Assembly: GCA_028710485.1 (NCBI GenBank)
Contig: JAQTTZ010000006.1
Location: 1 to 64,000 of the forward strand
DNA: 64,000 nt
Origin: Bacteriovorax sp.
Lineage (GTDB): Bacteria > Bdellovibrionota > Bacteriovoracia > Bacteriovoracales > Bacteriovoracaceae
Reading direction: 5' to 3'
The notes beneath the pieces are model-generated. The model was not told where the DNA came from. It did not search any database and was given only the letters and a program-made list of their open reading frames with translations. A program made the position numbers and the translations under genes. Shown piece after piece: positions 334 to 29,898 of this stretch. Positions within the stretch are counted from its first letter, which is position 1. Each line of letters starts with the position of its first letter.

Positions 334-2826
334 TTAAGCCGCTTTTTTATCAATATTACTTAGTTTTTTTTCAAGTTCGGATACTTTTGAAGCCAGAAGT
401 GCGTTTTCTAGTTTTAATTTGATGGCTTCTTTTTTCTTTTCGGTAATATCGTTGTTTGCCTCAGTAATCCGCGCACTGGCATTCTCTAACTGTTTAACAT
501 ACACTTCATTACTCTTACTTATGGCAACGGTAGGCTGAGTTTTGCGCTTTTGCGATTCTTCCAATTGAGCAATCGAGAACTTGAGTTTCTGCTCAAGTTT
601 TTTAAGCTCTATCCCTTGAATTCTTTGCTTATCTTCCAGGGATTTTTTCTCAACTTGCAGATTGATCAACAACAAGTCCTTTTCCAACTGCTCTTTTGAA
701 GGGCCGGCCGCGATAGCCTTTTCATCTTTAAGTTTGATGTATTTTTCTTTTTCTTCGGCAATTTTATTTTCAAGGTCCGTTCGCTCTTGTTTGAATTTCT
801 CAATCAAGGCTTGAGCCAAATGAAAATTAGTTTTTAATGCTGTAAGCTCTTTATCTTTTTTCACTAAAGAATCGCTGTCATGCTTGCCCATGTTCTCGTT
901 AATGATAACAACTTTTCGATTGGCAAGTTCCAAGCGAGCAGCAAGACTCTTATTTTCGACAAGTAGCATTTCTAATTTTTCTTCATTGGCAAATTCACGA
1001 CTTCTAGAAAATTCATCCTTTAATCCCTCAAGATGTTCCTCTAGCGTTTTGTTTTTATTTTCTTTAGCAATGAGAATTTGCTCGAAATCTATTTTTTGCT
1101 TTAGTGCGATTGTCTCTTTAGCTTTCATCATTTCAAGCGTTTTAGTAAGTGCATGCTTAAGATCTGATATTTCCTCTGCTTGAGCCCCAGTAAGCGTAGA
1201 ATCTTTTTCCTTCTGAGCAACGTTAACCTCTGCGCGAAGTTTTACAATTTCACTCCGCATCTGCTCCATGATTTTTTTCATACGGACAATTTGACCTTCC
1301 AATTTCTCACGAGCTGCATCCTGCCCTGGTTGCTGAGAAAGAAAACGAAGAGCAAAAGCTTCTTCTAATTTTTCTTTTTTAATCAATTCACCACTGATTG
1401 CTTCTTCCACTAATCCTTTAACGATAGTTCTTACTTCTTCAGGATCAGCGCTGAGTTGCTCTGAAACAATTTTGACAATATCCTCTTCAACAACATTGCG
1501 CCCAGATGATTTAATCGTAACGACTTGTTCTTTTATTTGGTCTACCAGGTCGGAGCGTTTCACTTTCCACTCTTCTTCATTTTGAGTTTCTGTCAGTCCA
1601 CTAACTTTGGTCACGTCATTACTTTCATCCTTAGGACCTGCTTTCAGCCTGATTATCTCAATGATGTCTTCAAGGGATTTCTGGCTTAAAATGCGCTGAA
1701 TTTCATCAACATGAGAGTCTAAATTGGAATTGGCAATTTTTTGAATATAATCGGTGACGCCATCATACAAGCTGTCATCGTTAAGCAGCTTAATTATAAA
1801 ATTCTTAATTTCCAAATCAATGGCAAGTAAAGCGTCTTGCCTAGGATAATGAGAAAGATAGGTATCGATGTCTTCAATAGTGAGAGAAGAAAGTTTAGGT
1901 GGAGACTCTTCGCTTGTTCTGAAATTTTTAATAAACAGACTGAACTTTCTCGCCAAATGAAGTTTTTCAGATTGATCAATTCTATTTAAATTAGCTTCGT
2001 ACTGAACACTATCCGGGACTTCATCCAAACGATTAATTAAAGCTGATTTTGAGTCACTGGTATTATGACGTTCACTAATCTCAGTAAGAAAAAATGATTT
2101 AAATGGTTGGAGCTTCTTCTCCTTAAACCAAAGAGAGGATAAAAGAAGTCTTTCTCTCTTTTTAAAATAACTTGCATCAAAATAGTTAGCACTCGAAGAA
2201 AATTTCGCAACCTTCTCGCTCTTGGAATTAAAATTTTTGCTCATCTCAAAACTTCCAGCACTCATCGAAATTTGAATTGCAAAACCTTTTTCTGAGTAGG
2301 AAAAGGAGACATCAAGTGGAAGTGGACCTTCTTCTTGTTCTATTAATTTAAGAGAGTAAGGAAGAGCGAAATTGAGATAATTTCTAACTTGCTCGTAATC
2401 GAATTTATTTTTATAAGCTTCCAACACGATAGTATCAATAAAATAGCCAACGTTTAGATAATCATGAATTTTCAAAGTGAAAACATTTTGAAAATCTTTT
2501 GAAAAACGATCTACTAAATCGAAATTTTGAGCATCAGAGAAATAAGAATTTAGAAGAGATCTTGCGCCCTCTTCATTAATAAGATTTTCATCAAAAAAAC
2601 CTCTAACTTCAGACAAACAAGCGGAGGCAATCGTTTTTCTAGTCTGAATTCTAGGAAGAATCTTTAATTCTTCCAGGTAATCATCCACGATGAATAGATA
2701 GTCTGCTAAGTGCTCTTTATCAAATTCAGTACAAAGCTCCAGACCCAATTCACGAAAAAAAGATCCCACCTGAGCATTTTGCTGCTCAGTCGAGATTAAT
2801 ATTCTTTTTTTAGTCAAATGATTCAA
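334..2826 (-). CDS. Large coiled-coil protein of unknown function
   Basis: An 830-residue protein in two parts. Residues 1 to about 400 look globular (mixed helix, with a beta-rich patch near 170-200); from about 400 to the end it is almost entirely heptad-like coiled coil rich in K, E, L and Q. No signal peptide or membrane segment is visible, so it is probably cytoplasmic. The start is a TTG codon at 2824-2826, supported by a GGAGAA Shine-Dalgarno six bases upstream. It follows the gene at 2846-3751 after 19 bases, so the two are probably co-transcribed. The family is not recognised; a scaffold or cytoskeleton-like role is possible but unproven. Confidence 0.85.
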   Translation of the reverse strand: MNHLTKKRILISTEQQNAQVGSFFRELGLELCTEFDKEHLADYLFIVDDYLEELKILPRIQTRKTIASACLSEVRGFFDENLINEEGARSLLNSYFSDAQNFDLVDRFSKDFQNVFTLKIHDYLNVGYFIDTIVLEAYKNKFDYEQVRNYLNFALPYSLKLIEQEEGPLPLDVSFSYSEKGFAIQISMSAGSFEMSKNFNSKSEKVAKFSSSANYFDASYFKKRERLLLSSLWFKEKKLQPFKSFFLTEISERHNTSDSKSALINRLDEVPDSVQYEANLNRIDQSEKLHLARKFSLFIKNFRTSEESPPKLSSLTIEDIDTYLSHYPRQDALLAIDLEIKNFIIKLLNDDSLYDGVTDYIQKIANSNLDSHVDEIQRILSQKSLEDIIEIIRLKAGPKDESNDVTKVSGLTETQNEEEWKVKRSDLVDQIKEQVVTIKSSGRNVVEEDIVKIVSEQLSADPEEVRTIVKGLVEEAISGELIKKEKLEEAFALRFLSQQPGQDAAREKLEGQIVRMKKIMEQMRSEIVKLRAEVNVAQKEKDSTLTGAQAEEISDLKHALTKTLEMMKAKETIALKQKIDFEQILIAKENKNKTLEEHLEGLKDEFSRSREFANEEKLEMLLVENKSLAARLELANRKVVIINENMGKHDSDSLVKKDKELTALKTNFHLAQALIEKFKQERTDLENKIAEEKEKYIKLKDEKAIAAGPSKEQLEKDLLLINLQVEKKSLEDKQRIQGIELKKLEQKLKFSIAQLEESQKRKTQPTVAISKSNEVYVKQLENASARITEANNDITEKKKEAIKLKLENALLASKVSELEKKLSNIDKKAA

Positions 2827-2845
2827 GACTTGTTCTCCAAACTAA

Positions 2846-3751
2846 TTAAGCACCCATTTCAAGGGGGGCAATTTCTTTTTTTGTTTCTAAACTTTTCCTC
2901 AGGACATTTAAAATTTTCTCATCACACTTAAAAAGTGAATTTTTTATTTCATAAAAAATTGATTTATGAGGTCCACATGAAAACGAGTAATGATTATTTA
3001 AAGCAACCAACACCAACTCAAGATCAGTCATCTCATGCTTGTTAATTTGCATAGCTCCCGATCCATTATACCGTTCCCCCAAGAGCAAGTTTCGATTATT
3101 GCTCAACTGGTAAATGTCTTCAAGAATTTGTTGATCTTCAACTTGTAAATTTTCTTGAGTTCTAATTTTTTCCAATTGCATCTTTAAGGTTTGCAACGGT
3201 ACTGATATTTTCAAATCCATAAGATTTAAAAATGTTTCAGTGAAAATTTGCGATAAAAAATCATCGTGATAATAGCCCAATAAAAAAGCACAGAGAGTGT
3301 AACCTGTTGCCATGCTCATGCTTCTCTTGAAAAGATCAATATCTTTTTCCAGATAATTTCGGGATTGCTCTCGGTCTATCTTAGAGAAGACGCTCCATGC
3401 CAGTTGATCAACTTCAAATTGAGAGGCTTCGTCGCTGCCAAGTTCTTCAGAGAACAGGTTCATTAGTTTCCTACGCCATTTCAATTTTTCTTTGACTAAT
3501 ATTTCTGAGTGATGGCCTTTAAAAAACTCAACAAAGTCATGCTGAAGTTGCAAATTAATTTGATCTTCAATAAGCAAGACATGATTGGCCTTGAACATTT
3601 TTTCAATTAAGTGGATATTGAGAAAATCTGATTTGGCTGACAACAAAACATGAGTGCCCGACTTTTGTTGCCAAAAAATATTTCCAGGTGAAAGGATAAA
3701 TCCTTTGATCTCTTTTAAATTTAAATCACGTTTTTCCAAAATAAGAACCAT
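2846..3751 (-). CDS. Degenerate HD-GYP-like protein
   Basis: A 301-residue soluble protein. Residues 140-190 follow the pattern of an HD domain helix pair ending KISVP, as in HD-GYP proteins (HDIGKIGVP), but the metal-binding HD dyad is replaced by LM (177-178). Residues 226-256 (GERYNGSGAM, then ALNNHYS) resemble the HHERYDGSGYP...ADxYDAL block, but the two histidines and the GYP tyrosine and proline are missing. The protein therefore looks like a catalytically dead HD-GYP relative that might bind a nucleotide or a partner. It is the upstream partner of the coiled-coil gene at 334-2826. The homology is inferred from motif spacing and needs a profile search. Confidence 0.7.
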   Translation of the reverse strand: MVLILEKRDLNLKEIKGFILSPGNIFWQQKSGTHVLLSAKSDFLNIHLIEKMFKANHVLLIEDQINLQLQHDFVEFFKGHHSEILVKEKLKWRRKLMNLFSEELGSDEASQFEVDQLAWSVFSKIDREQSRNYLEKDIDLFKRSMSMATGYTLCAFLLGYYHDDFLSQIFTETFLNLMDLKISVPLQTLKMQLEKIRTQENLQVEDQQILEDIYQLSNNRNLLLGERYNGSGAMQINKHEMTDLELVLVALNNHYSFSCGPHKSIFYEIKNSLFKCDEKILNVLRKSLETKKEIAPLEMGA

Positions 3752-21382: not shown

Positions 21383-22309
21383 TTATTGGCAAAAAGGCGT
21401 AGGTTTGCTGGTAGATATATTATATTTTTGAACAACACCACAATCATCATCCGAGTTATAAACATTTAAAACTGAACATTCCGCGGGCTTTCCGTGAGAC
21501 TTATTCCACTTCATATTTTTATTACATTGCACATAAGACGATTTATCGATACAGGCCCAATGTTTTTCTTTGCAGTTGTAAACCAATCCTCTTCCTAATT
21601 GATCATAAAATGGAGGTTCTGTGTAAATATCATCTGCAACAATTTTGTCTTCAAGCTTGGTCTCTTTTTTGGCTGAACTCTCATCTGTCATTTTATCTTT
21701 TTCATCTACGCTATCAATCAAGCTATCAATACTCTTATCAACTTGTTCACTAGATTTGGCTTCACCCATTTTAGAAGCTGGCTCACTTGCAATTTTTACA
21801 ATTGGAGTCTCATCAATGGCCTTCTCTTCAGCCTTAGGAGGCGGGACTTCTTCAACTTTTTTCTCAGCAATATTGACATTTTCTACAGGAGGTAGGGCCT
21901 CAACTGGTTTTGTTTCGGATGTTTTATCTGTTGCTTTATCTACTGGTGCAACGGCACTAGGGTTTTCAGGGCTTGTTGTTTTGCCAACAGCGGCGGCCAC
22001 TACGGGCTTAACTCTGTGCTTGCGTGGCTTTGTCGGTATATTCTCGATTTGAGTTTGTGGATCTTCTTTTAGGAGAAAATGATCAACAGCTAAATAACCT
22101 AACCCAATGACCACGACGACTCGAATGATCATACTGATCTGTTTCTTTTTTTTATCATTTTCGACAGGATTTTCGTGACTATCTTCAAACTGTTCTTCAG
22201 ATTGTTCTTCAGAATGTTCGTCGTGAGTATTATCGTTCTCAATACCTAACTTCTTTCGAAGAGGTGCTGGTAGACTTTGTTTTAGGCTAGCGAGAAGTTT
22301 TTCAAACAT
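21383..22309 (-). CDS. Membrane-anchored Pro/Glu/Lys-rich protein with Cys-rich C-terminus
   Basis: A 308-residue protein. Residues 1-56 are acidic and cytoplasmic (repeated SEEQ/EQFED); one membrane helix follows at about 59-79 after KKKK. Residues 85-230 form a long low-complexity region rich in P, A, E, K and V (TonB-like spacer). The last 65 residues form a compact domain with six cysteines (YNCKEKHWAC, VQC, AEC, DDDC, PFC), presumably disulfide-bonded in the periplasm. The topology resembles a periplasm-spanning anchor. The family is not recognised. It converges with the HD-GYP gene three bases away. Confidence 0.8.
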   Translation of the reverse strand: MFEKLLASLKQSLPAPLRKKLGIENDNTHDEHSEEQSEEQFEDSHENPVENDKKKKQISMIIRVVVVIGLGYLAVDHFLLKEDPQTQIENIPTKPRKHRVKPVVAAAVGKTTSPENPSAVAPVDKATDKTSETKPVEALPPVENVNIAEKKVEEVPPPKAEEKAIDETPIVKIASEPASKMGEAKSSEQVDKSIDSLIDSVDEKDKMTDESSAKKETKLEDKIVADDIYTEPPFYDQLGRGLVYNCKEKHWACIDKSSYVQCNKNMKWNKSHGKPAECSVLNVYNSDDDCGVVQKYNISTSKPTPFCQ

Positions 22310-22978: not shown

Positions 22979-24022
22979 TCAAGCGAAATTAATTTTCAGA
23001 AAGCTCTGTAAATGATTTCTGTCGGGTGAAAGCCTAATCCACTCTGAATTAAGAGGATTTTTTTTAACCTTTTTAACCGACTCTATTCTCCATTCTACCC
23101 AATCAGCTTCTGGATATTTTGAAGCGAGCGACTGAATAACTAATCCCATGGTTTTTCGATAATTCACTTCAACCAAAGCATAGGTTTTTAACTCCCCATT
23201 TTCACGATAAATAAATGAATCAATTTGAATATTTGAGACAGCTCCCAAGTTCAAATAAGTTTGAGCGATTTGCTGAGTCGTTTTTTCTAATTCATCTAAT
23301 GAGTAAGAATATTTTTTAAAAATATATTTTTTAAATTTATCCACATCACTTGATCCGGCCCCACCTTTAAAACTTCCGGATTCTGAATTGAAGTTTTCCA
23401 CCATAAACTGTCTCTTTATAATACCATCGACAACTTCAAAGGTTGTTCCAATATCAAAAACGCGCTCGTAAATAGGTTCCAGTAAAACCTTTCCCTCTAG
23501 AATTTTTGAAAGTAATGATTCATCTAGCGCATCAGTCCTAAATTGCTTATGACCTATACCACTAAAACTATCGGGACGTTTAATGATCCATTTTTCTATT
23601 TTAGGAAATTTTTTCAAATGATTTTTGAGTTCATCCCAGGTTTCAACAACCGCTCCTTGTTTAAATCCCCAATGATTGAGAATGGCAATTTGCGCTGAAG
23701 TCAGTTTAGAATTAAGAGTTCGCTCCAATTCAATATTTAGATGTTGCCCCCACCAATACTCGAATGTTAATGCCTCTGGATTGAATTCTGGAATAACAAA
23801 TTCCATATTCTTTAATCTTGCGAGATAAGATTGGTCATAAACTTGACAATTTTTTAGAATAGCTTTTTCCTGATTTACCAGAAAAAAAACATATTCAAAT
23901 TCTCTAATAATTTTTTGATTGGTCGGACTGCCTTCTTTGTATTGAGGATCAAAAAGAAAGGCTTCATAATCGAGATCAACTTTGTAAATTTTTTTAATGG
24001 GACAAGTTTTCAAAACTACCAC
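22979..24022 (-). CDS. ATP-grasp-like protein
   Basis: A 347-residue cytoplasmic protein. Residues 120-330 have the order of an ATP-grasp ligase: WIIKRPDSFSGIGHKQF (lysine plus glycine-rich loop), KVLLEPIYERVFDIGTTFEV (adenine hinge), a small-residue stretch SFKGGAGSS, and a C-terminal QIDSFIYRENGELKTYALVEVNYRKTMG, where Asp/Glu/Asn would bind magnesium. The substrate is not evident. Its start overlaps the end of the DUF455 gene by seven bases. The assignment rests on motif order, not on close similarity to a named enzyme. Confidence 0.75.
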   Translation of the reverse strand: MVVLKTCPIKKIYKVDLDYEAFLFDPQYKEGSPTNQKIIREFEYVFFLVNQEKAILKNCQVYDQSYLARLKNMEFVIPEFNPEALTFEYWWGQHLNIELERTLNSKLTSAQIAILNHWGFKQGAVVETWDELKNHLKKFPKIEKWIIKRPDSFSGIGHKQFRTDALDESLLSKILEGKVLLEPIYERVFDIGTTFEVVDGIIKRQFMVENFNSESGSFKGGAGSSDVDKFKKYIFKKYSYSLDELEKTTQQIAQTYLNLGAVSNIQIDSFIYRENGELKTYALVEVNYRKTMGLVIQSLASKYPEADWVEWRIESVKKVKKNPLNSEWIRLSPDRNHLQSFLKINFA

Positions 24023-24831
24023 GACTTGCGATTGGTCACTTTGAAATCGTCGCGAAATGCATCCAATTGGTCCAAAAAGGCATGATCAATTCCGGCGCGT
24101 TCTCTGGAGCTACGATCAAAATGAATTCCTTTTGAACGAGCAGGAGTCATAACACCTGGAAGGTTATTTCTAAAATAGTTCCATAGGTCTTTATCGCCTC
24201 TCCACTGATTGAGCCAGTGGGCCCCCAATGCCACGTGAGAAATTTCATCTTCAAAAACTATTCGCATAATCTTGGCAGTTTCGAAATCCTCAACGGCCAA
24301 GAATGATTTTTCGTAATATAGAGCAAAATCAAGATTGGCCGATTCGAAGGTCATGGCCATGGCCGAATAAAACTGTGAAGGAGTAATGCATTTTTCCATT
24401 GAACGCCAGAAAAAATCATTCAGAGGAAATTCTCCCAATTCAATCCCAAATTCTTTCATCCGCGATAAATAGAGTTTTAAGTGTTTTTGCTCGTCTTGAA
24501 TTGTTTTCACCAATCCTTTTTTAAAAAGAATCGAATCTGGTCTTGTATCTGGATAAACAAGAAGTGCTGCGGCCATCATTTCAATTGCAAGTAATTCATG
24601 ATTGGCAAAAAAATGTAAGGCCAATCCTCTTTTTTCTTCAAGGTGAAAGCTGGTATTTTTGGGAAATTTAACTTGTTGATTATCAAACTTTAACTGGTTT
24701 GAGCGCCCAGGATTTTCAGGCAATTCATATAGGTCTACACATTCGGTGTAATCAATATTTTTAAGTGGGATCAATTTGTCTTCTAAACTCGCACCCTCTA
24801 AGAGGATGCGAGCATATTCACGATAGTGCAT
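24016..24831 (-). CDS. DUF455 family ferritin-like protein
   Basis: A 271-residue all-helical protein of the DUF455 (ferritin-like/MiaE-related) group. Candidate diiron ligands appear at the expected repeat: NHELLAIEMMAAALLVYP, IQDEQKHLKLYLSRM, MTFESANLDFAL and FEDEISHVALGAHWLNQWRG. The C-terminus contains PARSKGIHFDRSSRERAG, a conserved basic patch. Such proteins are presumed non-heme iron oxygenases but have no settled function. It starts three bases after the helicase stop and overlaps the ATP-grasp gene, so all three are one transcriptional unit. Confidence 0.85.
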   Translation of the reverse strand: MHYREYARILLEGASLEDKLIPLKNIDYTECVDLYELPENPGRSNQLKFDNQQVKFPKNTSFHLEEKRGLALHFFANHELLAIEMMAAALLVYPDTRPDSILFKKGLVKTIQDEQKHLKLYLSRMKEFGIELGEFPLNDFFWRSMEKCITPSQFYSAMAMTFESANLDFALYYEKSFLAVEDFETAKIMRIVFEDEISHVALGAHWLNQWRGDKDLWNYFRNNLPGVMTPARSKGIHFDRSSRERAGIDHAFLDQLDAFRDDFKVTNRKSW

Positions 24832-24834
24832 AAA

Positions 24835-27498
24835 TTATTTCTTAGTTTTTCCTTGAAATTTTCTTTTTTTAGAAGGTTTACCCTGTCTAAAGTCCTTATT
24901 AGTCGAGCCTACAGCCGAAGCTAAATGGCTTGGTCTCTCGCCCGGTTTGCCTGGAGCAGCTCCACGTCTAGGGAATGGTCTTCTGGTAAATCGTCTTTCT
25001 TTAAAACAATTATCGCAAATTGGAAATTTCGATTGATCAGGAAGTTTAGCTCCACAGCTTGAGCATGTCGGCGTGATCTTATCTGATAAAAGAACGTTGA
25101 GTTTTTCAATCGCTAAAAGTTTATTTTCGAGTAGATCTTTGTCTTCAAACTCAAAGTTCTTATTACTAAAGTGACGTGCTAGCCACTGATAAAGCTCTAC
25201 GCATTTAATTGTTGTTTCTAGATAATCAATCTCGTTTGAAGTGTGATTAATATGTTCGTTTTTGATAATCTCACTCGCGACATATTTTTTAAGAATCCAA
25301 ACATAATACTGAACGTGTTCTAGCAATCCTAAGTTAACAGGGGCACAAGCAAATCCAAAAATTTCGGAGGAAGTTAAAATATTTTCATGATCGATATCTT
25401 CAACTGTTTCTGCGAGCTCAATCATTTCCTTTAAATCAACACAATAAAAAGGCTTAGTGAAAGTCATGGTGTTAAAGAGTCTCAAAAATTCGGACAATTT
25501 AAGAATAGGAAGATTGTTAGACGAGAGAGCATTATTAACTTTGGTAAAAATATCTAAATCGGGACCAACCATACTCTGAGTTTGTTGATCGAGAGTTGAA
25601 TCAAGTGCATTTTGAATATCAGAAAGTCCTTCTTCCACTTTTTGCAGACAAGTAACTTTCCCCACAGGAAAACGCTGGAATCGTCCTGCTCGCCCTGCAA
25701 TCTGCTTAATCTCACTCACCGTAATCTGGTGTTCTTGAGAGTTAATATGTTTAGTAAGAGTCGAAAAAACAATTCTTTGGATCGGAAGGTTCATCCCCAT
25801 TGAAATCGCATCGGTACTGACGATTACATCTGTAATTCCCTTATCGAACTTACGGGCCTGCTCACGGCGAACTTCCGGTGAGAGCATTCCATAAATTATC
25901 GAAACTTTAAACCCGACTTGTTCTAAATCGTATTTATACTTAAGGGCATTTCTTCTTGAGAAAACAATTAATGCATCACTTTTTTGAAGTTGAGTAAGAG
26001 TAATTGGGCGATCTTCTACTTCAAGCTTGGTCATGCGTTCATAATTTTTAATTTCTAATTCATCACCACAGAGCTCAACAATTTGTTTTACTAAATCGAG
26101 AACTGATCCATCACCACAAACATGCACTTCATAAGCATGAAGATTAACCAGTGCTCTAGTCCAAGCCCAGCCCCTTTGCTTATCTGTGATCATCTGGATT
26201 TCATCTATAACGGCACAAGAAAACTCTTCGCTTAATTTTGCCATTTCAATAGTAGATGAATAATGAGTGGAATTTTCCACTTCGATAACTTCTTCTCCAG
26301 TCAGCAACGTGGTCGCAACCCCTTTGGAGTTCATCGTATCGTATAGTTCAGCAGCAAGAAGTCTTAGAGGTGCCAGATAGCATCCCTTTCTCGATTTAAC
26401 GAGAGCTTCAATTGCATGATAAGTTTTCCCTGAATTGGTTGGCCCCATATGATAAATAATTTTGCGGGGAACTTTTCTGGCGTGAGAGTGAATCCAGAAT
26501 TGTCCTAGATACTCTTGAAGAATATTAGAAGAGATATCTTTTCTTTTTAAAACCAACACTGATTTTATTAATTTTTTAAACTCACCTTCTAGATATTTTT
26601 CATTTCTCCAAATATTACTAGAGAGCTGTTTAAAGAAGCGAATATATTCTTCATCGCTTACAAGATCAATCGATAAGCCTTGCTCAGATAATTGGCGGTG
26701 AAAGAATAATATAAGATTTTGCGAGTGGCGAAGGGCAATCTCTCCCGGATAAGTGAAAGTATCTTCGCTTAAAATCTTAATTTGAGCTTCAAGACGATTA
26801 AGAGATGATTTTTTTAATTTAAACTGAACCTGTTGAAACTTGCGATCTAGGGTTCTGAGTAAATGTTGGTAGTGATTGTTTACAGCTGAAATGCCTTTAT
26901 CGACTTCAGTATTAATCTGCTCTTCGATTTTTGCTTTTGTGTCATTAATGGCCTGAACACACTCATCAAAAACAACTTCGCGAACACGAGTTCGGTAATC
27001 GGCTAAACAGGCCACACACTGACAGGCCAGGGCGGCTGTTTTAAGTTCAATATTAAAATGTTCTTTAACTAAGGATTGAGTATCAGCGTGATTTTTTTCT
27101 TTATCTTCACTCCATTTTCGGAGAATGGCATGATGGACTTCAAGCACAGGAGGATTTAGTCCTCCATCTTGCCCAAAATAAAAAATTTCTTTTTCTGGCA
27201 TTAAGCAGTCATCAGCAAATATCAAAGAGATAATATTATCTCTTTGTAAAAATTCGTAAAAATTAATGTATTCAGTATTAAAAATAGAAACAAGAGAAGG
27301 ATTTCTCTTAAAATTATTCCAGAGAAGAGTTTGTGTTTTTTGTACAAAATTCAAAACAATTTCAGCATCTTCAACGGTTCGAAGATAGTCGTCATTTTCA
27401 GCGAAAGAATGAATTTTTATTAGGGTTTTTCTTTCAATGTCTAGGAGACTGCGAATTCCTTCGTAGTCCGGGAGAGAGGGAAAATCAGTCGTACTCAC
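24835..27498 (-). CDS. SUV3-like DExH RNA helicase with zinc ribbon
   Basis: An 887-residue superfamily 2 helicase resembling mitochondrial SUV3/SUPV3L1. Walker A is GPTNSGKT (352-359); the DExH box reads DEIQM, the SUV3 form. Motif V/VI are VSTDAISMGMNLP and QIAGRAGRF. A SUV3-like C-terminal region follows (residues about 640-800), then a zinc ribbon (CSSCGAKLP, CDNCFKE) and a K/R-rich tail. The first 340 residues are an extra helical region with a CQCVAC cysteine cluster. SUV3 acts with an exonuclease in RNA turnover; such a role here is inference. First gene of the operon with DUF455 and ATP-grasp. Confidence 0.88.
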   Translation of the reverse strand: MSTTDFPSLPDYEGIRSLLDIERKTLIKIHSFAENDDYLRTVEDAEIVLNFVQKTQTLLWNNFKRNPSLVSIFNTEYINFYEFLQRDNIISLIFADDCLMPEKEIFYFGQDGGLNPPVLEVHHAILRKWSEDKEKNHADTQSLVKEHFNIELKTAALACQCVACLADYRTRVREVVFDECVQAINDTKAKIEEQINTEVDKGISAVNNHYQHLLRTLDRKFQQVQFKLKKSSLNRLEAQIKILSEDTFTYPGEIALRHSQNLILFFHRQLSEQGLSIDLVSDEEYIRFFKQLSSNIWRNEKYLEGEFKKLIKSVLVLKRKDISSNILQEYLGQFWIHSHARKVPRKIIYHMGPTNSGKTYHAIEALVKSRKGCYLAPLRLLAAELYDTMNSKGVATTLLTGEEVIEVENSTHYSSTIEMAKLSEEFSCAVIDEIQMITDKQRGWAWTRALVNLHAYEVHVCGDGSVLDLVKQIVELCGDELEIKNYERMTKLEVEDRPITLTQLQKSDALIVFSRRNALKYKYDLEQVGFKVSIIYGMLSPEVRREQARKFDKGITDVIVSTDAISMGMNLPIQRIVFSTLTKHINSQEHQITVSEIKQIAGRAGRFQRFPVGKVTCLQKVEEGLSDIQNALDSTLDQQTQSMVGPDLDIFTKVNNALSSNNLPILKLSEFLRLFNTMTFTKPFYCVDLKEMIELAETVEDIDHENILTSSEIFGFACAPVNLGLLEHVQYYVWILKKYVASEIIKNEHINHTSNEIDYLETTIKCVELYQWLARHFSNKNFEFEDKDLLENKLLAIEKLNVLLSDKITPTCSSCGAKLPDQSKFPICDNCFKERRFTRRPFPRRGAAPGKPGERPSHLASAVGSTNKDFRQGKPSKKRKFQGKTKK

Positions 27499-27578
27499 TA
27501 AAAAAATTTCCTTTTTAAGGTTATACGACTGATTATATCTTACTAAATTCTGTAGGTCTATTTTCTAACGGCCAATAA

Positions 27579-28778: not shown

Positions 28779-28905
28779 AATTGTTGTCCTTTTTTAGTGG
28801 GAATCATCCTTGATGATAAAATTGTGTGTAAATTTTTGTGAATTGTCTAATTTTCTATCCTTTTCTATTCTTACTTCTTACAATCTTTCCATAAAGGAGC
28901 ATTTT

Positions 28906-29898
28906 ATGATTTCAACCTGGCTTACTAAAACATTCGATATAAAATATCCCATCATTCTTGCCCCTATGTTCCTCGTCTCAAACAATAAAATGTTAATCGA
29001 GGCGTATAAAAATGGAATAATAGGCTGTATCCCTGCCCTCAATTATAGAACTCCCGAGGAATTTGAAGAGGCGCTTAAAGAGCTTCAAGATAAATGCCAG
29101 GGTAAATTTGGAGTTAATCTCATAGTAAATAAGTCGAATATTCATCTCAAAAATCAACTTGAGGTCTTAGTTAGAAATCCACCTGCTTTTGTGATTACCT
29201 CCCTAGGCTCCCCAGAAGAGACAATCAGATTATTGAAACCTAAAGGCGTTAAAATATTTTGTGATGTCGTCGATGTTGAATATTCTAAAAAAGTTGAAAA
29301 ACTTGGAGCGGACGCATTGATTGCTGTTAACTCTGGAGCCGGTGGACACGCTGGTAATATCCCCGCTTCCATTTTGGTTCCGATGCTTAGAGAGCAATGC
29401 AAGCTTCCAGTTATTTCTGCCGGAGGAGTTGGAACCGGGGCCGGTTTACTTTCCACTCTTGCTCTAGGAGCAGAAGGAGTTTCAATTGGATCACCTTTTA
29501 TCGCGACAATGGAGTCTGGAGTTTCACAGGAATATAAACAGGCAGTCATAGATTACGGTGCTGAAAACATTGTCATGACAACCAAGATTTCTGGGTCTCC
29601 ATGTTCTGTAATCGAAACACCCTACGTTAAAAAAATTGGAGTTGATCAAAATTTTCTTGAATCTTTTTTAAGCCAAAACAAAACAGCTAAAAAATATGTC
29701 AAAATGCTCACCTACTACAAAGGAATGAAGGCTGTTGAAAAAGCGGCTTTTGCAGCTACCTATAAAACAGTTTGGGTCGCGGGACCATCAATTGAATTTA
29801 TCCATAAAATCGAAACAATTCAGAGTATTGTTGAAAGGCTCATCGCTGAATACCAAAAGACCCACGACGAAGTATGTTCAAGAAATCAGCGGCCTTAA
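28906..29898 (+). CDS. Nitronate monooxygenase (2-nitropropane dioxygenase family)
   Basis: A 330-residue FMN TIM-barrel enzyme. An AAAGGAG site precedes the chosen ATG. Key features: the N-terminal YPIILAPMF, the catalytic-histidine motif NSGAGGHAG, and the FMN phosphate loops PVISAGGVGTGAGLL and GAEGVSIGSPFIATMES. The family oxidises alkyl nitronates such as propionate 3-nitronate, but many members are misnamed enoyl reductases or detoxifiers, so the substrate is open. It overlaps the following MFS gene by 25 bases, suggesting coupled expression. Confidence 0.9.
   Translation: MISTWLTKTFDIKYPIILAPMFLVSNNKMLIEAYKNGIIGCIPALNYRTPEEFEEALKELQDKCQGKFGVNLIVNKSNIHLKNQLEVLVRNPPAFVITSLGSPEETIRLLKPKGVKIFCDVVDVEYSKKVEKLGADALIAVNSGAGGHAGNIPASILVPMLREQCKLPVISAGGVGTGAGLLSTLALGAEGVSIGSPFIATMESGVSQEYKQAVIDYGAENIVMTTKISGSPCSVIETPYVKKIGVDQNFLESFLSQNKTAKKYVKMLTYYKGMKAVEKAAFAATYKTVWVAGPSIEFIHKIETIQSIVERLIAEYQKTHDEVCSRNQRP

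Follow-up and report, generated by a model that had tools for sequence, protein, structure and literature searches.

The chemistry of ferritin-like diiron enzymes is the oxidation of C-H or N-H bonds, and ATP-grasp enzymes form an acyl phosphate that is then passed to an amine, the amide being merely the commonest outcome of a repertoire that also includes thioesters, carboxylations and phosphorylations. With a different diiron fold, oxidation and ATP-grasp ligation also lie side by side, as in the case of mangotoxin, where the diiron oxidase MboA adjoins the amino-acid-joining ATP-grasp ligases MboC and MboD (PMC13185094). For the ferritin-like family DUF455 (PF04305), the De-DUFing survey reached a fold relation solely through designed sequences (PMC4520260), and no DUF455 substrate, product or protein structure turned up. 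The open-access papers that were searched yielded neither a description of a DUF455-ATP-grasp architecture nor a paper containing both terms, and nothing was found in it on bacterial SUV3 helicases with Bdellovibrio.

The window (the whole stretch of DNA that was analysed, 64,000 nt) originates from Bacteriovorax sp. (assembly GCA_028710485.1, contig JAQTTZ010000006.1, positions 1-64,000 of the forward strand). It contains three co-directional minus-strand genes, at most 10 bp from each other, for a helicase, a DUF455 protein and an ATP-grasp protein (Table 1). The junctions agree with those reported in the first-pass annotation, i.e. a 3-bp gap between the helicase and DUF455 genes and a 7-bp overlap between the DUF455 and ATP-grasp genes. 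The window also carries, at 21383-22309, a fast-evolving gene whose product resembles GltJ weakly and has a C terminus that is conserved and contains Cys; this gene is kept in 49 of 51 long loci.

Table 1. Features of the Bacteriovorax sp. locus (window positions) and coordinates of fused homologues.
Feature	Position	Strand	Remarks
SUV3-type DExQ RNA helicase	24835..27498	-	887 aa, GTG start
DUF455 ferritin-like protein, long type	24016..24831	-	271 aa
Predicted ATP-grasp ligase	22979..24022	-	347 aa
N-terminal helical region of the helicase	26494..27498	-	residues 1-335
Possible sigma-70-like promoter, TAGACC-17-TATAAT	27532..27560	-	ahead of the helicase start; score not above chance
Helicase parts (residues)			N-terminal all-helical region 1-335; core 337-620; CxxC..CxxC zinc-ribbon-like motif 812-831; basic tail
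Putative Mg-ATP residues of the ATP-grasp protein			K147 and G155 in WIIKRPDSFSGIG loop; D268; E285-V-N287-Y-R289-K-T-M-G293 (metal/ATP motif)
Fused DUF455-ATP-grasp genes	L061:6137-8101; L123:4466-6595

The DUF455 and ATP-grasp proteins

Pfam searches upheld the first two domain calls, with the helicase matching DEXQc_Suv3 (PF22527, E 6.2e-63) and Helicase_C (1.2e-13), and its neighbour matching DUF455 (E 4.5e-44; 151.3 bits against a gathering cut-off of 34.3). The ligand set of ferritin-like diiron four-helix proteins (E, ExxH, E, ExxH) is complete in the window's DUF455, and the putative ligands (E79, E114-x2-H117, E163 and E196-x2-H199) are invariant in 24 proteins, distant short forms included. 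When the DUF455 profile was compared with the PDB, the nearest natural structures were aldehyde deformylating oxygenase and the tRNA hydroxylase MiaE (8fhc, 5.8e-4), all with weak scores (best natural protein 5e-4). MiaE was not the best family of the window protein, for which Pfam at E<=1 gave DUF455 alone. Because these PDB matches are weak, the label 'oxygenase' is applied to DUF455 at the level of the family, and a non-catalytic or an oxidase role is possible.

The third gene, for which an ATP-grasp-like product had been guessed, has zero matches in both Pfam and NCBIfam. In the PDB, a profile built from 19 relatives matched PurK at 9.1e-5 and a peptide ligase of the ATP-grasp type at 2.5e-3, and a Foldseek search with the AlphaFold2 model (mean pLDDT 92.9) gave 479 matches at E<=0.001, the best 50 of which are all ATP-grasp enzymes (top E 3.4e-13; the best matches being peptide/amino-acid ligases and PurK/PurT/Ddl-type enzymes). 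Six residues (G155, D268, E285, N287, R289 and G293) are invariant in 19 sequences, with K147 aligned in most rows, in agreement with the usual Mg-ATP site. Profile search and model thus strongly support the guess: the product is a genuine member of the ATP-grasp ligases, and carboxylate-amine ligation is its most likely activity. An ATP-grasp ligase label can now be given to a family missed by Pfam and NCBIfam.

Other members of this family were observed in different settings. A Prevotella record (L222:5737-6846) encodes a stand-alone relative, also without a Pfam or NCBIfam match, which has an FNPEHD start and an ELNLRTTMG motif and shares E-x-N-x-R-x-T-M-G with the window protein. In two genomes (L133:5335-7974 in G273 and L138:4631-7278 in G065), another ATP-grasp from this family is fused to, or lies beside, a carbamoyltransferase, with a glycosyltransferase gene adjoining.

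Fusion and joint loss of DUF455 and the ATP-grasp ligase

The survey covered 340 genomes of the phylum, 121 of which belong to the window's family. In these 121 genomes, counted by hand from separate searches with a PurK-like match and the carbamoyltransferase fusion set aside as paralogues, DUF455 and the ATP-grasp gene are both present in 95, both absent in 25 (in part incomplete assemblies), and DUF455 is alone in one, at a contig end; a true ATP-grasp gene alone was found in none. As the 121 genomes are kin, a Fisher value computed from these counts is no real probability. Outside the family, long-type DUF455 was detected in 20 genomes, 19 of which carry the ATP-grasp part, while in the 20th the locus is cut by the contig end.

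A DUF455 profile search of genome contigs gave 556 candidates, from which 80 loci were kept, all of them close relatives; the retrieved records are mostly from Bacteriovorax, Halobacteriovorax and other Bacteriovoracaceae. All 80 named family loci have both genes, split and co-directional, in most cases with an overlap. Beyond the window's family, the ATP-grasp matches among the 340 genomes are mostly located in frames of 600-800 aa, and reading of loci from families f3, f8, f12, f14, f22 and f23 revealed one-frame fusions with DUF455 at the N terminus and ATP-grasp at the C terminus; frame length indicates the same for f20. The neighbours of the fused genes had no common theme across the fusion loci that were read. 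In a phylogenetic tree the long-type DUF455s form one clade, separate from the stand-alone short DUF455s (support 100/99), and the short forms (f6, f11, f27 and Alphaproteobacteria) are without an ATP-grasp partner; the tree is compatible with fission of a fused gene as well as with fusion of split ones. A further DUF455 match in the window's own genome is short and has a TAA within it (L221, G000:C147:1656-2120). Plasmid matches comprised short-type DUF455 or lone ATP-grasp and no more, and carriage as phage cargo was rejected, as the fused protein had zero matches in 50,697 phage records.

Thus, DUF455 and the ATP-grasp ligase are inseparable: across the phylum they come and go as a unit and are often joined in one protein, which strongly supports the oxygenase-ligase pairing proposed in the first-pass annotation. 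This pairing is genuine and recurs, and it seems not to have been described before. For DUF455, a family without an assigned function, and as far as the open-access papers searched go, its fusion and joint loss with an ATP-grasp ligase are the first concrete functional constraint.

The two proteins probably are the halves of one enzyme system, a ferritin-like diiron oxygenase or oxidase and a carboxylate-amine ligase, since fusion and joint loss are most simply explained if both act in turn on one substrate. The diiron half would oxidise (hydroxylate, desaturate or N-oxidise) a small carboxylate or amino-acid-like substrate; the ligase half would activate the carboxylate as an acyl phosphate and couple an amine to it by an amide or peptide bond, so that the outcome would be an oxidised small peptide or conjugate. 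We infer the consecutive steps, their order and the kind of substrate from the families involved and from their association.

It is quite improbable that the pair belongs instead to a lipid or hydrocarbon branch, in which a fatty aldehyde or an acyl compound would be the substrate of DUF455, as with aldehyde deformylating oxygenase, and the ATP-grasp protein would activate the carboxylate. In the PDB, the DUF455 profile matches aldehyde deformylating oxygenases most often, but these matches are weak and ferritin-fold enzymes are all alike; a FabK/nitronate-monooxygenase-type gene lies nearby (28810-29898), but it is one among several syntenic neighbours and is on the other strand. Moreover, the nearest structures of the ATP-grasp protein are peptide and amino-acid ligases. 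Gene order at the locus is fixed across the family, as it would be if DUF455 were a non-catalytic ferritin-like protein handling iron or peroxide and the ATP-grasp protein an unrelated biosynthetic ligase, held together by frozen order. This explanation is very unlikely, given that at least six other families, whose neighbourhoods are unrelated, have single-frame fusions and that the two genes are almost always present or absent together.

Rates of divergence from the nearest genome differ among the three genes (dN of 0.022 for the helicase, 0.030 for DUF455 and 0.129 for ATP-grasp), and the dN/dS ratios (0.028, 0.021 and 0.146, respectively, with dS near saturation) indicate purifying selection on all three alike. 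An ATP-grasp protein that evolves so much faster than DUF455 is odd if both are halves of one tightly fixed pathway; the several-fold faster divergence of the ligase may reflect a flexible or changing partner substrate.

A MoxR-type ATPase paired with a CoxE-like VWA protein has, elsewhere, a role in metal-cofactor maturation. In the f12 genus three loci (L061:4361-6135, L129:6367-8138 and L130:2536-4310) have such genes immediately ahead of the fused DUF455-ATP-grasp gene, and a fourth locus has a VWA gene nearby; two of the pairs were domain-scanned, and the others, including L130, were judged by length and order. These neighbours are consistent with help in maturation of the metal site.

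As a single compact protein, the fused form of the diiron-ligase pair is open to expression and assay. A new oxidised peptide or cofactor of predatory bacteria could originate from this pair.

The helicase as a conserved neighbour

SUV3 structures align with profile positions 333-775 of the helicase, i.e. its core and part of its C-terminal half (E 3e-107; SUV3 structures <=4.4e-107), and SUV3_C (PF12513) gives a weak match (E 0.11). The N-terminal region (residues 1-335), confidently predicted to be all-helical (pLDDT 89.9), is as novel as had been proposed: it has no significant match in PDB and viral structures and no Pfam family, and as a helicase part it is essentially confined to the window's family. 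The two cysteine features noted earlier are also conserved. In the N-terminal region, the invariant residues H137, C159, C161 and C164 could constitute a metal site, and at the C terminus the zinc-ribbon-like motif C812/C815/C828/C831 (CxxC..CxxC) is kept in nearly all members. Membership of a defence system was rejected, since PADLOC gave generic helicase matches only.

The three-gene order, which the first-pass annotation had suggested searching for among relatives, recurs in nearly all family members and is therefore far beyond chance. The helicase lies directly upstream of DUF455, often overlapping it, in 71 of 79 informative loci, while in the remaining 8 an opposite-strand gene splits it from the pair. 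In several loci (L069:6462-8015, L065:1819-3360, L066:6868-8376 and L137:2290-3825) an opposite-strand gene of about 510 aa, without a Pfam match, was identified between the helicase and DUF455. However, 38-49 of the 51 long loci also retain flanking genes with other functions, so the adjacency of helicase and pair is near the background of a frozen locus.

This bears on the possibility that the three proteins form one system, in which the helicase would open or present RNA or a ribonucleoprotein and the pair would modify it, either by MiaE-like RNA hydroxylation or by RimK-like tagging of ribosomal proteins. Besides the frequent position of the helicase directly upstream of DUF455, two observations speak for such a system, i.e. 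the presence of MiaE among the DUF455 profile matches and a locus from another family (f8; G149, L224:1-1137 and 1165-3288), where a SUV3-like helicase is divergent from a DUF455 gene with a gap of 27 bp. That helicase is 34% identical over the core and different at its N terminus, and the ATP-grasp part following its DUF455 is cut by the contig end. The helicase is missing beside the fused genes in all cases but one. As a single independent adjacency, this locus keeps a functional link open.

The distribution of the genes argues against a three-part system. The helicase is present in 114 of the 121 family genomes, 18 of which lack the DUF455-ATP-grasp pair, and in two of them (G224/L232 and G332/L230) the helicase and flanking genes stand in their usual order with only the pair gone. 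In the latter (L230:3806-6513) the helicase consists of two overlapping open frames, by frameshift or assembly error. Conversely, a helicase of the window's type was undetected in most families carrying the fusion (340-genome survey), and the pair has no recognised RNA-binding domain. The three genes are thus not retained and lost jointly: in the three-gene system of the first-pass annotation the DUF455-ATP-grasp unit stands, whereas the helicase as a part of it, acting within one RNA-modifying system, is not supported, and the three-part reading is unlikely. The helicase is best read as an RNA helicase in its own right, near-universal in the family and encoded at the same locus; it is for the most part a conserved neighbour and not a required component.

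The idea of RNA modification is a weak one and rests on the helicase. Its boldest form, which we consider improbable, is that a hitherto undescribed bifunctional enzyme, diiron oxygenase and ATP-grasp ligase in one, produces or transfers an oxidised group resembling an amino acid and is core to many bacteria of this predatory phylum, with the activity being coupled to the helicase in the window's family and directed at RNA or a ribonucleoprotein. If this were true, the helicase-coupled pair would be a new nucleic-acid or ribosome modification.

Comparison with described systems

The window helicase shares with the mitochondrial RNA helicase SUV3/SUPV3L1 its core as well as a portion of the C-terminal half, and differs from it in the 335 N-terminal residues, unrelated to any solved structure, and in the added C-terminal zinc-ribbon-like motif. 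With MiaE (8fhc) the DUF455 protein has a ferritin-like diiron fold in common; this kinship is no closer than that to aldehyde deformylating oxygenase, and nothing points to a tRNA substrate.

Within the DUF455 family itself (PF04305), to which the window protein belongs at E 4.5e-44 and with all six diiron ligands, it falls in the long-type clade tied to ATP-grasp, whereas the short type stands alone without a partner. The ATP-grasp protein has the fold and catalytic motif of ATP-grasp peptide ligases (8ynd from Streptomyces, the ATP-grasp protein 3wvq, and SAOUHSC_02373 of S. aureus, 7r8q), yet it is only about 11-15% identical to them, has no domain-level family match and comes with a diiron protein, to which it is fused or coupled. 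The mangotoxin proteins MboA and MboC/MboD (PMC13185094) resemble the DUF455 pair in joining diiron oxidation to ATP-grasp ligation. MboA-type oxidases, however, have a haem-oxygenase-like fold and are separate proteins encoded in biosynthetic gene clusters, while the DUF455 pair has a ferritin-like fold, is often fused and resides at a conserved chromosomal locus.
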